Part shown: piece after piece, positions 47 through 13,913 of the stretch
Layout: every line of letters begins with the position of its first letter
Numbering within the stretch: position 1 is the stretch's first letter
From: Thermoplasmata archaeon
GTDB lineage: Archaea > Thermoplasmatota > Thermoplasmata > Lutacidiplasmatales > UBA184
Direction: 5' to 3'
Length of the DNA: 38,297 nt
Assembly (NCBI GenBank): GCA_022750415.1
Contig: JAKIVT010000001.1
Coordinates: 1-38,297, forward strand
The notes under the pieces: model-generated
Told to the model about the DNA's origin: nothing
What the model saw: only the letters and a program-made list of their open reading frames with translations
Databases searched by the model: none
Translations under genes and position numbers: made by a program

Positions 47-1552
47 GTGAGCGCCATCCTCCGGCTGCCGCCCGAGCTGGTTGAGTTCAGTCTGCGGGAA
101 CCCCCGCGCTCCCTCCTCATTCGGGGCGAACCCGGGGCGGGAAAGTCCACCCTCGCGCTCACGGTCCTCAGCGGATTCCGGGGCAAGCGGCTTCTCGTCA
201 CGAGCCGGGTGACGAAGGGCGAGCTCGAGACGGACTATCCGTGGCTCGCGACGAACGTCGAGGGGCCCGTCGAGGTGATCGAAGCGCTCACCGGGACGTC
301 CGGGCTGGAGGCGAAGGGTCGGGCCCTCCGGGCCGGGGCCGAATTGATCCGGGGGGCATCGGAGGAGAAGGACCTCGAATCCCTCTGGCTTCCCGACGCC
401 GTCCTGGAGGCGTTTTCGAGGATTGGGCCCGGCAACCCCGGCATGGTCGTGGTGGATTCTTGGGACGCGCTCGTCGAGCAGTACGTGGGAGCGGTGAAGA
501 CCGACGCCGGACCGTACCCCGACCGCGACGAGATCGAACGCCTGATGCTCGGCCTCCTCGGTCGCGGCCGGGTCCACCTGGTCATCGTGGTCGAACGGGA
601 GGCTGCCTCGCAACTCGATTACCTCGTGGACGGCGTCGTCGCGTGCGTGGTCACCAGCAATGAGGACCGGCTCGAGCGGTGGTCCCATCTGAAGAAAATG
701 CGAGGGGTGCGGGTGAATCACGCCTGGTACCCCTACACCCTTGAGGGGGGTCGGTTCCTGTGCATCGCGCCCATGCCGTCCGATTTCCGCATGCAACTGC
801 GGCCGCCGCAGCCGGAGCCCGAACCGTTGGAGGGGAGGCTCTGGCCGGGCTCGTTCGACTACGCGTCCAATTTCGGACGACTCCCGTTCGGCCGGGCGAC
901 CTTGCTCGAGGTCGATCCGGAGGTGCCGATCGAGGCCGTCCGGTTGCTGGTTTCCCCCCTCGTGAGCCAAGTGCTGCAACTCCAAGGGCGGATCCTCGTC
1001 ACCCTTCCCCCCAGTCTTTCGGCCGCGGACGTCTGGCATTCGTTTCGGACCGTCGTGACCCCCGAGCAATTCGTGAACCAAGTCCGGATCTACGCCCCCT
1101 CCGGGTTGAACCCCTACGAGGCGGACCTGGAACTGTTGGAGAAGGTCCTCGTCTCCGGACCCAGCGGGGAGGGACCGTCGATGACGACCCGGATGCCGGA
1201 GGCGAGCCGCTTCCTTCGCGAGGGGAACGCCGGGGGGATCCCGAGCCTCGGGATCTCGTGGGTGAGCGGGCTGCAGGCCGCCTCCCCGGCGGAAGGACCC
1301 GCGATGTACACCCCCGAGGCGTTCCCCGCCCTCGTCCAGAAGATCCTGGTCGGTTCGACGACCCACCTCGTGATGATCGGCGTTCCCACCGACCCGCTCC
1401 TTCGGAGCCTCCAGGAGATCGCGTCCGCCCGCATCTCGATGAAGGCCCGGAGCGGCCGAGTCTTTGTCTTCGGAATCCAGCCCCTGACTCCGCCCCTGGT
1501 CCTCGCCCAGGCGGATACCGGGGACCCGTACCACCTGATCCGGATCGTCTGA
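47..1552 (+). CDS. GvpD/KaiC-like RecA-superfamily P-loop ATPase
   Basis: A 501-residue protein with a Walker A motif GEPGAGKST at residues 27-35 and a hydrophobic Walker B strand ending MVVVDSWD (Asp137). The opening, a short 'LPPELVEF' helix followed directly by the P-loop strand, resembles the N-terminus of the archaeal GvpD/KaiC-like family of RecA-fold ATPases. The C-terminal half (from about residue 270) has alternating strands and helices but no second Walker A, so it is probably a degenerate second domain. The start is a GTG at 47; a longer start would lie before the window. Upstream context is not visible. Actual gas vesicle function is unlikely without other gvp genes, and a regulatory or signalling ATPase is a better guess. 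The P-loop assignment is firm; the subfamily is tentative. Confidence 0.7.
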   Translation: MSAILRLPPELVEFSLREPPRSLLIRGEPGAGKSTLALTVLSGFRGKRLLVTSRVTKGELETDYPWLATNVEGPVEVIEALTGTSGLEAKGRALRAGAELIRGASEEKDLESLWLPDAVLEAFSRIGPGNPGMVVVDSWDALVEQYVGAVKTDAGPYPDRDEIERLMLGLLGRGRVHLVIVVEREAASQLDYLVDGVVACVVTSNEDRLERWSHLKKMRGVRVNHAWYPYTLEGGRFLCIAPMPSDFRMQLRPPQPEPEPLEGRLWPGSFDYASNFGRLPFGRATLLEVDPEVPIEAVRLLVSPLVSQVLQLQGRILVTLPPSLSAADVWHSFRTVVTPEQFVNQVRIYAPSGLNPYEADLELLEKVLVSGPSGEGPSMTTRMPEASRFLREGNAGGIPSLGISWVSGLQAASPAEGPAMYTPEAFPALVQKILVGSTTHLVMIGVPTDPLLRSLQEIASARISMKARSGRVFVFGIQPLTPPLVLAQADTGDPYHLIRIV

Positions 1553-1554
1553 TT

Positions 1555-1569
1555 CGTCGGCGGCCGACG
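1555..1569 (+). other. Small hairpin just after the ATPase gene
   Basis: CGTCGG and CCGACG form a perfect 6-bp stem with a CGG loop, three bases after the TGA stop at 1550-1552. No T-run follows, so this is only a possible transcript-end structure. Confidence 0.25.
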
Positions 1570-1838
1570 GGTCCAACGGTGGGTCGACCGTTCCCTGGTG
1601 GGAACTCCGCGCCCGGTGCCACGGTCGATTTCGGGTAGGCCCTCCAGGGAAGGCCGTTCCCCGAATCGCCCCCCAAATTCCCCCCACCCTCTCCGCCCTG
1701 CCTGGAACGAAGCCCGTGGGAGGTACGCCATCGGCCGTCCGTCACGAGGTTGAGGAAGGGTGGTTGGTGTCGTAGCAGGGCAAGAGGAGCGGGAGCTTCC
1801 TCGAGGCTCCCGGGTCGCCAGCTTCCCCCCTGGGAGGG

Positions 1839-5107: not shown

Positions 5108-5243
5108 CGGGCCGAGGGCGATGGCGGGGACGGAGACGGCTCCGTCGAGAGTCCTCGGGCCCTCGTGGGCTCGGTCGGGGTCGATTTCCCGGGGGAGCGC
5201 GCGGCGGGGATCCGGGAGGGGGGAAGGGGTTCGCTACCGACTC

Positions 5244-6350
5244 CTAGACGATCTTCCCCGCCTCGACCACGGGCTTTCCGTCGATGGAGAGGTCGGCGCC
5301 CGTCACCACGATCCAAGCCCCGAACGGGGATTTGTTCTTCCCGCCGAGAAAGGTGTTGCCGCCGATGCGGAACAAGAGGGAGCCCAGTTCCTGGTCTTCC
5401 ATCTGGGGGAGCTTGGAGATCTCGGGGTTCAACCCGACCGTCATCTGGCTGAGGCGGTCCCGGCCGGCCCGAGGGGCCTTCGCGTAGGCGGCCTTGATCG
5501 GGTCGCCGCCCGAGTCGTACGACTGCCCCGTCAGGTGCCCGTTCGCAAACGTCCATCGGCCGCCGGAGACGGGGCCGCTGTCGGGGTACGTGGTATGGTT
5601 CCCGACGATCACGCCCGACGCGGAGGTGTGGTCGACGGCGGAGCCCACCACCCCGCCGGGGATGGTGGCCATGTTGTTGCCGGCTTTCAGGTCCGCTTCG
5701 TCCACCAGGGCGTCGTCCAGCTGAATGGGGAACTTCCCCAGCTTCAACGTGAGTTGGGTGCCGTTGGGGTGGTTCACGGTCGCCACCTTCCCCTTCCGGA
5801 TCCGCTCCCCCACCCGAGTTCCCATGGCGTGCATCTCCGCCGGGGGCACGAGGCTCGCCCGCACGAGTTCCTCCCGCCAGTCGTCGAGGTCGAGCTTCCA
5901 TCGGTCCGCCGCGACCTGGCTCGTCCGCCCGAGGTACAGCCGAGCTCCCCGGACCTTGGACTTGGCCGCGCGACGGTACCATTCGGGGTTATAGGCCGCC
6001 ACGCCCGTGAGGCTCTTGGCCGGTAGGTCGTCCCGGCGCGTCCACTCCGAGGGGCCGAAGAAGAACACATACGCGGCCGACTTGTCGAGGGCCGCCCACT
6101 CGTGGCTGCCGACGCGACCGTTGTGCTTCCCGTTCCCGGTCTTCACCGCCTCCCAGAACGATTCCTCGTCCTCGTAGAGAAGCATCGGGTTGGCTCCCAT
6201 CTTTCGGGCTTCCACGACGAACGGCTTCGCCCAGGGGAGCGTCTCCGACCAGGTCTCGATGACGACGTTGTCCCCTTTCTTGATCCGGAGGGTCTTCGAG
6301 AGGACGTTCTTCGCGAGGGCGGCTCCTTGTTCGGGGGAGGAGGCGGTCAC
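5244..6350 (-). CDS. M29-like aminopeptidase homologue without metal ligands
   Basis: A 368-residue protein with the layout of M29 (AmpS/AmpT) metallo-aminopeptidases: an N-terminal alpha/beta domain (IKKGDNVVIETWSE) and a C-terminal domain with NMATIPGGVVGSAVDHTSAS, a GRWTF strand and LSQMTVGLNP. Active members have Glu in the 'GEVF' block, Glu before 'LGxNP', His before the 'ALG' turn and an H-x-D pair near the end. Here those blocks read PGGVVG, SQMTVGLNP, SLLFRIGG and PFGAW, so none of the expected ligands is visible. It may be a non-catalytic homologue or use another chemistry. GTG 6350 is the start. Neighbouring tmk on the same strand ends in a separate unit. Confidence 0.7.
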   Translation of the reverse strand: MTASSPEQGAALAKNVLSKTLRIKKGDNVVIETWSETLPWAKPFVVEARKMGANPMLLYEDEESFWEAVKTGNGKHNGRVGSHEWAALDKSAAYVFFFGPSEWTRRDDLPAKSLTGVAAYNPEWYRRAAKSKVRGARLYLGRTSQVAADRWKLDLDDWREELVRASLVPPAEMHAMGTRVGERIRKGKVATVNHPNGTQLTLKLGKFPIQLDDALVDEADLKAGNNMATIPGGVVGSAVDHTSASGVIVGNHTTYPDSGPVSGGRWTFANGHLTGQSYDSGGDPIKAAYAKAPRAGRDRLSQMTVGLNPEISKLPQMEDQELGSLLFRIGGNTFLGGKNKSPFGAWIVVTGADLSIDGKPVVEAGKIV

Positions 6351-6477
6351 GCCGGCCCGAAACGTCCGGCCCTACATGAACCCCACCGGCAGGGCCTTCG
6401 ATTAGTGCCTAAAAACAGGCGGATTCCCGCCGCGTCAGTGGGTCGCCCGAGGTCGTACGACGGAGTCCTGGCCGGAA

Positions 6478-7068
6478 CTACAGCCCGGCCGCCATCAGGG
6501 CGTTGAGCGTCTGTTCGAGGGTCCGATCCGGGTTTCCGGTCGCGTTGATCCGCACCCAGCGAGGGGGCTGGAACATCTGCTCGAACTTTCGCTTGACCTT
6601 CGTCAGGTACGGCTCGTCCTCGAAGGCGTCCCGCTGGCCGGTTTCCTCGACGCGCTTCATGGCAAGCTCGACGGGGGCGTCGAGATAGAGCACCATGTCG
6701 GGTTCCATCCCGACGACCCGCTCGATCCGTTCGAGCTCCCGCCACGCCTCGGCCGACAGGCCCGGGTAGCGGTAGGCCAACGTCGAGTAGAACGACCGGT
6801 CTTGGATCACGACGTCCCCCTGGTCGAGGGCCTGCTCGATCTGGGGGCGGAGCATCGCTCGGTCGACGGTGGAGCACAAGGCGGCGCTCAGCCCATCGAC
6901 CTTGTTGAGTCGCTCGCTCTCGGCTCGGAGGAACTTGTCCGTCGGCTCTCGGAAGCTCGACACCGAGTGCCCCCGGGCGAGCAACGGGTGGACCATCCGC
7001 GCCGCGAGGTCGCTCTTCCCGGTCCCGTCAATCCCCTCGATGACGACGTACATCCCCCGTTCGCTCAC
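6478..7068 (-). CDS. tmk: Thymidylate kinase
   Basis: A 196-residue dTMP kinase that phosphorylates dTMP to dTDP with ATP, feeding dTTP synthesis. The P-loop is EGIDGTGKS (residues 11-19), followed by SFREPTD (the TMPK R-E-P element). The DRSFYSTLAYR segment stands for the DRY-type motif, and the 'DMVLYLDAPVELAMKR' strand-helix is the usual nucleoside-kinase core. Length fits the 195-215-residue family norm. ATG 7068 gives MSERGMYVVIEG, with the P-loop at the standard distance. An AT-rich box at 7149-7156 lies between this gene and the divergent small membrane protein and could serve either. Assignment is secure. Confidence 0.93.
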   Translation of the reverse strand: MSERGMYVVIEGIDGTGKSDLAARMVHPLLARGHSVSSFREPTDKFLRAESERLNKVDGLSAALCSTVDRAMLRPQIEQALDQGDVVIQDRSFYSTLAYRYPGLSAEAWRELERIERVVGMEPDMVLYLDAPVELAMKRVEETGQRDAFEDEPYLTKVKRKFEQMFQPPRWVRINATGNPDRTLEQTLNALMAAGL

Positions 7069-12457: not shown

Positions 12458-12700
12458 CTACGCCGCGGTGGTCTTGGCCCGGTGGCCCGAGCGCAACCGG
12501 CTGCCGACCCGAGCGACGCCGTGCCGGGTGGCGGTTCCGACTCGCTTGCCGGCCCGCTTGACGTCTCGGCCAACGACCTTCGCGCCCTTCTCGAGCTTCG
12601 CGCCCGCGCGGCCCATTCCCTTCTTCACATCGCGCCCGACCGTCTTCGAGCCGCGCACGACCTTCTTCTCGACATTCCTTCCTCGCTCTTTCATTGACAT
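12458..12700 (-). CDS. 80-residue basic protein of eleven-residue repeats
   Basis: I do not recognise this gene. The protein splits into seven 11-residue units plus three residues: units 2-6 are KKVVRGSKTVG, RDVKKGMGRAG, AKLEKGAKVVG, RDVKRAGKRVG and TATRHGVARVG. Each ends in V/A-G, has a basic residue at position 5, and has Gly or Ala at position 6. Such hendecads form long amphipathic helices, as in synuclein-type or LEA proteins. The strong positive charge would suit binding to DNA, RNA or acidic lipid. There is no cysteine and no signal peptide. ATG 12700 starts exactly on the repeat register; ATG 12694 is possible. A real gene is likely from the regular protein-level repeat. Confidence 0.6.
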   Translation of the reverse strand: MSMKERGRNVEKKVVRGSKTVGRDVKKGMGRAGAKLEKGAKVVGRDVKRAGKRVGTATRHGVARVGSRLRSGHRAKTTAA

Positions 12701-13052
12701 TCGGATCCCTCTGGTAGATGGCACGACGAGCCCGGTCGGACGGTTAGTCTCCCCGTCAACTGGAATTGAGTCGTTTAGGGGAGCGCGACGAGCGTCAGGA
12801 AAAACTCCTCCTGCGAGCCACCCAACACTGCCCCTCTGCCAGCCCACAGCGATCTCGGCCTTGGCGCACGGGATCGTCGTCAAGACGGAGCGTGGATCCG
12901 CGGCATTCGTGGACCGGCTCGGCTGGACGCCGCGTTGGCCCGAGCCCCGGTTCCGAACCTCCGCTAGGCTCCGAACCCGCCGCTCCGAGGGAGACGGTCG
13001 GGACGGCCGGTTCGCACCCCTTTTCAAGCCCAGCGGGGTCAACCGTGGACCC
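12701..13052. other. Intergenic region between divergent genes
   Basis: No gene was found here. The notable stretch is 12749-12783, where CTCCCC and GGGGAG bracket a 23-base AT-richer core (CAACTGGAATTGAGTCG), which could hold the promoter of the basic-protein gene. The other end holds the promoter-like TTTTCAAG of the exported-protein gene. Open frames here have arginine-rich, low-complexity translations and look spurious. Confidence 0.5.
13021..13028 (+). promoter_or_regulatory. TATA-like box of the exported-protein gene
   Basis: TTTTCAAG is centred about 28 bases before GTG 13053, which fits a leaderless transcript and supports that start. Confidence 0.4.
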
Positions 13053-13913
13053 GTGATCGCGTCGCCAACTCGGGGGCTCTCCCGCAGAGGGTGGGCCGTG
13101 GTCACCGCCGGCGCGATCGCGCTGGTGCTCCTCGTGCCCATGGCGTTCGGGGCCGGTCTCGTCCTCCACTCGGAGTGCGTGCTCACTCGCCTCGGCACAG
13201 AGACGATCTGGACCCCCGGCCTCGTGGTGAACTCCCCACCGAACGGCTCGGCCAGGGGGTGGGGAAACGATAGCCAGCACGGAGTGGGCTGGGGATCGCC
13301 TCTTCTCTCGAATGGCTCGGCAGGGGTCCTCGAGATCGAGATGAACTGGACAGTGTCCCGAGCGGGGATGGCCTGGGTGGCGGGACCGGGAGTCCGGCAC
13401 GCGTGTACCGTCCCCTACTGGGCCACCGTGGCCGTCGACGTCCGGTCGACCAACTCGACGTGGTGTCTCCTGCAGGGCCCGGGAAGTCCCTCCGATGTCG
13501 GTCTGTCTTCCGACACCCCGGTGGCCGGCTGTCCATTCCTCGGGACCGGGACGGCCGCGAGGCTCAACGCCTCGTTTGCGACGGTTTGCGCCAATCAATC
13601 GGCCTACCAAGGGGGATGCGGCGCGATGCAGTACGCCATCGGACCTGGCAACCGGATCAGCTTTCGCGCCTCCGTCATTGGGTTCCCGATCGAGATCCCG
13701 ATTCCGGCTCGACCGGCCGGCGCTTGGCTTGCTGTGGCCGACCCGATGAATCAGACCGTCGTGAGTTCGCTCTCGGGCCCGGGGTGTTGGGTCGAAGAGA
13801 CCGTGGGGGGACCGGTGCCCGCTGTGAGCGGACTCCGGCTGGGCCTGCTGACGTGGGGAACGTACGCCATGTTCCCGACGTCCGGGACCACTCCGGCATG
13901 TGCCCACGGATGA
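13053..13913 (+). CDS. Membrane-anchored or secreted protein, unknown function
   Basis: A 286-residue protein that I cannot assign to a family. An arginine-containing start (PTRGLSRRGW) is followed by one hydrophobic helix, AVVTAGAIALVLLVPMAFGA, which should act as a signal anchor. The rest is extracellular in character: rich in Gly, Ser, Thr, Asn and Pro, with N-x-S/T sequons (NGS, NWT, NST, NAS, NQS, NQT) and about nine cysteines that could pair in disulfides. GTG 13053 is chosen over longer frames because it places the hydrophobic helix near the N-terminus and fits the promoter. It has features in common with surface proteins at 20007 and 21909 but no clear sequence match. Confidence 0.65.
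   Translation: MIASPTRGLSRRGWAVVTAGAIALVLLVPMAFGAGLVLHSECVLTRLGTETIWTPGLVVNSPPNGSARGWGNDSQHGVGWGSPLLSNGSAGVLEIEMNWTVSRAGMAWVAGPGVRHACTVPYWATVAVDVRSTNSTWCLLQGPGSPSDVGLSSDTPVAGCPFLGTGTAARLNASFATVCANQSAYQGGCGAMQYAIGPGNRISFRASVIGFPIEIPIPARPAGAWLAVADPMNQTVVSSLSGPGCWVEETVGGPVPAVSGLRLGLLTWGTYAMFPTSGTTPACAHG

Follow-up and report, generated by a model that had tools for sequence, protein, structure and literature searches.

The window, by which we mean the whole 38,297-bp stretch analysed here, carries on its minus strand a gene that runs from an ATG at position 12700 to the end of a TAG stop at 12458. It encodes a protein of 80 residues (MSMKERGRNVEKKVVRGSKTVGRDVKKGMGRAGAKLEKGAKVVGRDVKRAGKRVGTATRHGVARVGSRLRSGHRAKTTAA) containing 25 Lys and Arg and 5 Asp and Glu, which gives a pI of ~12 and a net charge of ~+20; aromatic residues, Cys, and Pro are absent. 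Long ORFs overlap on both strands. The minus-strand frame is supported by its translation, by homologues, and by purifying selection, while the plus-strand reading of 12458–12700 is an unrelated frame and was rejected. The gene occurs once in its own genome (G000), a 2.0 Mb MAG of 90% completeness from an uncultured soil archaeon. A relative in the same genus, the Lutacidiplasmatales isolate AcS5-58, originates from pine-forest soil and has a GC content of 69% (PMC9287336). By this kinship, the own genome probably belongs to the same order. The divergent neighbor in the window (13053–13913, plus strand) looks secreted or membrane-anchored and has no Pfam match.

A conserved family of basic hendecad proteins

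Within one Lutacidiplasmatales-type genus, eight of 78 genomes contain homologues. Extending the search to 400 genomes sampled across the class added only weak matches of similar composition. Two further matches (L005 and L027, E about 5e-4) were set aside as other hendecad-like or Lys/Glu-rich proteins that are not clear orthologues. Intact copies share 49–65% identity with the window protein, and all copies have an Arg-rich C-terminus. The start codon is conserved, GC3 lies between 0.77 and 0.85, and pairwise dN/dS amounts to about 0.2–0.56, figures that were obtained without fitting an exact model and with synonymous sites partly saturated. The window gene thus encodes a real, conserved, unannotated, and strongly basic hendecad protein. 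The earlier note had held that a lack of homologues in related genomes, or indels that break the 11-residue period, would argue for a chance repeat. Since homologues exist and the sole indel among the intact copies is a gain of exactly 11 residues (the 91-residue proteins of G026 and G080, each aligned with a single gap), its proposal has withstood both challenges.

The genes next to the family members differ from genome to genome and include a PCNA-like gene (G010), serA (G077 and G061), a cardiolipin-synthase-like gene (G078), and an FAD oxidoreductase gene (own genome), the PCNA and serA names being read from the sequence without a profile search. A search for conserved operon context returned only the serA gene that adjoins the family gene in G077 and G061. 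The copy in G061 (L014/L021) is probably decaying: it has no stop codon at the usual place, continues into the beginning of the next gene downstream, and has largely lost the Val face described below, while its promoter element is kept.

Helical register and relation to known families

The protein had been described beforehand as a strict 11-residue grid over its whole length. Wheel and periodicity analysis supports this for five consecutive regular units (residues 12–66; 12503–12667, minus strand), whereas the terminal units are degenerate. Within the regular units, the translation confirms Gly at position 11 (residues 22, 33, 44, 55, and 66), Gly or Ala at position 6, Lys, Arg, or His at position 5, and Val or Ala at position 10. 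The hendecad grid is statistically real: the lag-11 self-similarity of the window protein was equalled by none of 5,000 shuffles, and by 0.22% when maximised over lags 2–23.

A helix with 11 residues per three turns (11/3) is expected to show an angle of 98.2 degrees per residue. The hydrophobic moment of residues 11–66 of the window protein peaks at 98.5 degrees, and the hydrophobicity of all seven intact homologues peaks at 98–99 degrees (shuffle p <= 0.0005), with a charge kept between +17.8 and +21.6. Periodicity at the level of letters is weaker in some relatives and not clearly significant in G010 and G026 when maximised over lags; as the 98–99 degree peak is found in all, the amphipathic register appears to be conserved more than the exact letters. 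When the residues are plotted on an 11/3 wheel, one face, spanning 131–262 degrees, is made up of positions 6 (Gly/Ala), 10 (Val/Ala), 3 (Val/Leu/Thr), 7 (small), and 11 (Gly), and the remaining positions are mostly Lys or Arg. The face is only weakly hydrophobic, a shallow surface of Val, Ala, and Gly that lacks aromatics in most copies. With the family alignment, AlphaFold2 models a single helix over residues 3–78 (mean pLDDT 76), which is a prediction of helix propensity and not proof of a stable fold. The prediction is therefore a single amphipathic 11/3 helix of about 76 residues, whose Val/Ala/Gly face is set against a Lys/Arg face. The amphipathic hendecad helix of strong positive charge suggested by the earlier note is thus borne out by the periodicity, the charge of ~+20, and the modeled helix.

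The basic hendecad family has no match above cut-off among Pfam, NCBIfam, PHROGs, and PDB families. A PDB profile search gave chance matches only, Foldseek against the PDB gave none, and plasmid and phage searches yielded nothing useful. Proteins of the alpha-synuclein type form 11/3 helices on lipid surfaces, with Lys-rich and Gly/Val positions. The basic hendecad protein shares this helix grammar with alpha-synuclein and Wolbachia WalE1 (NF047982), but it has no acidic tail. Matches to WalE1 are subthreshold in three of seven members (best E 0.024), with the window protein scoring 10.6 bits against an NCBIfam cut-off of 90, and none of the seven members matches Pfam Synuclein at E <= 1. Group-3 LEA proteins, such as tardigrade HeLEA1 (PMC10808001), likewise have the 11-mer amphipathic repeats seen in the basic hendecad protein, together with a weak hydrophobic moment. 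In experiments, HeLEA1 binds negatively charged membranes electrostatically and undergoes a disorder-to-helix transition (PMC10808001); such binding and a stress setting would be further points of likeness for the basic hendecad protein. In contrast to group-3 LEA proteins, it is far more basic, short, and archaeal, carries Gly at fixed positions, and is confined to one genus, and the Pfam LEA profile matches none of seven members at E <= 1.

The archaeal nucleoid proteins Alba, histones, and HU/HTa are also small and basic but have a globular DNA-binding fold rather than a single amphipathic helix, and no histone, HU, or Alba profile matched the members in Pfam scans. Entericidin (PF08085) has a short G-D-V-K-R-A-G-like motif in common with the hendecad protein, which lacks the lipobox Cys; the match is weak and subthreshold (E 0.12–0.14; 12.7 bits, where the cut-off is 23.3). 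Because the tested profiles do not match, we assign the protein to none of these families. It is best read as LEA- or synuclein-like by its probable mechanism and as a detected member of neither family.

A promoter element shared with other genes

Upstream of the gene lies a 32-bp element (12742–12773, minus strand) built of a 16-bp dyad, CTCAATTCCAGTTGAC (12755–12770), seven intervening base pairs, and the YTAnCC-type motif CTAACC (12742–12747). The dyad has one mismatch to the consensus, and the 7-bp spacing is conserved across the regulon. The dyad is kept 5' of seven of the eight family genes, having diverged in G010, and the element is common to family genes despite their differing genomic contexts. 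The family consensus consists of a dyad of the type CTCAAYTC.RGTTSAG, seven bases, and YTAAC(C/T). In six of the seven copies whose site is recognizable, the element ends 34–43 bp upstream of the ATG. The dyad is presumably the operator of a dimeric winged-helix regulator and CTAACC a TATA-like core promoter element.

A loose degenerate pattern with three mismatches was not enriched over the control, since half-sites of the CTCGA type are frequent in GC-rich sequence, and was replaced by a hold-out weight matrix. To avoid circularity, the matrix was trained only on sites of other genes; as these had themselves been detected with a matrix to which the hendecad sites contributed, the hold-out gives a strong test, though one that is not entirely independent. 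The hendecad site is the top match in the window, at 25.1 against 9.8 for the runner-up. It heads the ranking in G077, G026, G065, and G061 as well, and thus in five of the seven loci with a recognizable site. It comes second in G078, where a higher-scoring site precedes a PF11999 gene (L019), and third in G080, where one of two higher-scoring sites precedes a hendecad-like gene starting with MESI (L020). The diverged site of G010 (10.2) is still the best match of its 12 kb, and 183 kb of background, window included, contain no other match above 15.0. An element at a fixed distance upstream, recovered with a matrix from other genes, makes the membership of the basic hendecad gene in a dyad + YTAnCC regulon well supported. 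As the family occurs in only eight of 78 genomes, it is dispensable for this regulon.

In the loci scanned, which take in part of the own genome, the element also precedes acidic hendecad genes (L028, L032, L033, L034, L026, and L096), genes for membrane proteins of ~53 aa (MA-H-ISL..; L028, L031, L032, L033, and L053) and ~128 aa (MVQRSLVT..; L026, L034, L096, L099, L100, and L101), and further genes beyond these classes. It lies before genes for surface proteins with the ice-binding domain PF11999 in G000:C37 (L102) and G077:C18, and a lower-scoring copy stands before one in G078:C50; surface proteins of this kind with a dyad promoter were seen at L102, L096, and L100. PF11999 genes occur in 12 of the 78 genomes and in five of the eight with the basic hendecad gene (Fisher p 0.0016; p 0.008 when restricted to the 47 genomes of at least 80% completeness), an overlap confounded by relatedness and genome size (larger genomes, p 0.002). 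PF11999 domains can also be adhesins.

The acidic hendecad proteins resemble the basic one in their promoter element, in their hydrophobicity peak (97.5–99 degrees), and in their register, which matches that of the basic family across 51 aligned columns (hhalign 92%, E 7e-7, a value from a single comparison of low-complexity helices). They differ in their acidic helix (charge about -2 to -7), a Pro/Ala-rich tail, and a distinct N-terminus (ME-). The partner in the own genome (G000:C17, L101:1885–2169) has a TTG start and adjoins a response-regulator gene. Such a gene lies beside element-bearing genes in four clusters, each from a different genome: G000:C17 (L101:722–1777), G077:C18, G063:C6, and G078:C50, the last three regulators being located at L096:11471–12562, L099:11516–12571, and L100 about 5186–6658. 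These candidate regulators are of the REC + ArsR-type winged-helix kind; in the own-genome copy, the REC domain matches at E 7e-22 and the winged helix (HTH_5) at E 4.5e-6. Dimeric ArsR-type winged helices habitually bind dyads, and from this habit and the position of the gene we infer that the REC-HTH_5 protein may bind the dyad.

Several other observations were made at these loci. In three genomes, genes resembling cardiolipin synthase lie next to or close to dyad-bearing genes (L106/L107, L019, and L097). L106 and L107 come from contigs C163 and C80 of the own genome, which look as if they were the halves of a single locus of this kind. A dyad-bearing gene at L033:2591 (minus strand) encodes a basic, Lys/Arg-rich protein of 63 aa in which one unit is doubled (VTFLEGKKMPRRTRVKF / VSFLEGKKSPRRTRVTF). 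The locus L026 ~1312–1821 (minus strand) of G198, a genome from another genus of the family, encodes a 148-aa Ala/Val/Gly hendecad protein with a dyad promoter and near-perfect 11-residue repeats (GTAMVVGAETV GAAVVQGTETA ...). The regulon is not named in the order-level paper, one source rather than the full literature, which has no occurrence of "regulon", "response regulator", or "ice" (PMC9287336).

Proposed function in envelope-stress protection

Sharing its promoter with ice-binding-domain and small membrane protein genes, the basic hendecad gene probably contributes to protection against cold or drying. Among the nucleoid, RNA-chaperone, and membrane-curving roles listed by the earlier note, these promoter partners point toward cold, desiccation, or envelope stress, and we met no evidence in support of an RNA chaperone. 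We propose, with a probability of about 0.5, that the protein is a cationic amphipathic helix that protects the anionic membrane as part of a freeze/desiccation or envelope-stress regulon. The response regulator would bind the dyad and, under stress, switch the genes. In its free state the protein is probably disordered; at the anionic surface of the archaeal phospholipid membrane it would become helical and lie along it, bound chiefly through charge, and there it may buffer packing defects from freezing, drying, or osmotic stress by analogy with HeLEA1.

The register, charge, 11-residue indel, modeled helix, wheel segregation, and helix statistics were counted in favor of membrane protection, as were the presence of the REC-HTH_5 regulator at loci of the regulon and the cardiolipin-synthase-like gene that adjoins the family gene in G078. 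Membrane protection also fits the HeLEA1 precedent (PMC10808001) and the membrane and surface products of co-regulated genes. Against it stand a charge of +20 with few acidic residues, which exceeds the needs of electrostatic membrane adsorption, the weakly hydrophobic face, the presence in just eight of 78 genomes, the confounded PF11999 overlap, and the possibility that the PF11999 proteins are adhesins.

A less probable but serious alternative is a stress-induced nucleic-acid binder of the same regulon, a cationic helix that would coat or compact DNA (or RNA) during freezing or drying as a shield of the histone-H1-tail or Dsup type. The pI, the 25 basic residues, and the Arg-rich C-terminus would suit this role, and the Lys/Arg-rich protein of L033:2591 shows that another genome has a small basic product under the dyad. 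Histone (PF00808) and HU (PF00216) matches are absent from 25 sampled genomes of the genus, which makes lineage-specific DNA-packaging proteins plausible. Most sampled genomes, however, already have the nucleoid protein Alba: it is present in 20 of 24 others, and its absence from the own genome, 90% complete, probably reflects incompleteness. Moreover, the continuous hydrophobic stripe and 11/3 register are superfluous for DNA binding, acidic paralogues with the same register cannot bind DNA, and the co-regulated genes mostly encode membrane or surface proteins.

It is unlikely that the basic and acidic 11/3 helices instead join via their Gly/Val faces or charge into a filament, gel, or condensate. 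The two share promoter and periodicity, have opposite charges, and occur together in the own genome (G000:C1 and G000:C17), and a flat Gly-Val-Gly face suits close helix packing; yet the acidic family was detected in genomes without the basic one (G063, G005, and G082), and the charge match is far from 1:1. A secreted or bacteriocin-like peptide, to which a cationic amphipathic helix and the subthreshold Entericidin matches might point, is highly improbable for a sequence without signal peptide, Cys, or lipobox. Least credible of all is an ORF that arose by chance, or a repeat without coding function, in GC-rich DNA, since the overlapping ORFs on both strands are outweighed by homologues that are mostly 49–65% identical in unrelated gene contexts, by purifying selection, and by a promoter conserved at a fixed distance from the start.

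Considered together with its partners, the basic hendecad protein might belong to a previously undescribed archaeal freeze/desiccation regulon, although we hold this at somewhat less than even odds. Such a regulon would comprise a REC + ArsR-type regulator, a dyad beside the core promoter, 11/3 hendecads of opposite charge, and small membrane and ice-binding-domain proteins, as a counterpart to the combination of LEA and antifreeze proteins. The finding places a small, previously unannotated ORF within a regulon that can be tested, and the promoter element offers a means to find and group other genes "too short to annotate" in uncultured soil archaea. With its very high positive charge, the 11/3 helix provides a clean natural test of a membrane or DNA target. 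A thermophilic ancestor has been inferred for the Thermoplasmata (PMC9287336), and our results suggest that members of this class carry a LEA-like and ice-binding protection programme for temperate acidic soils.
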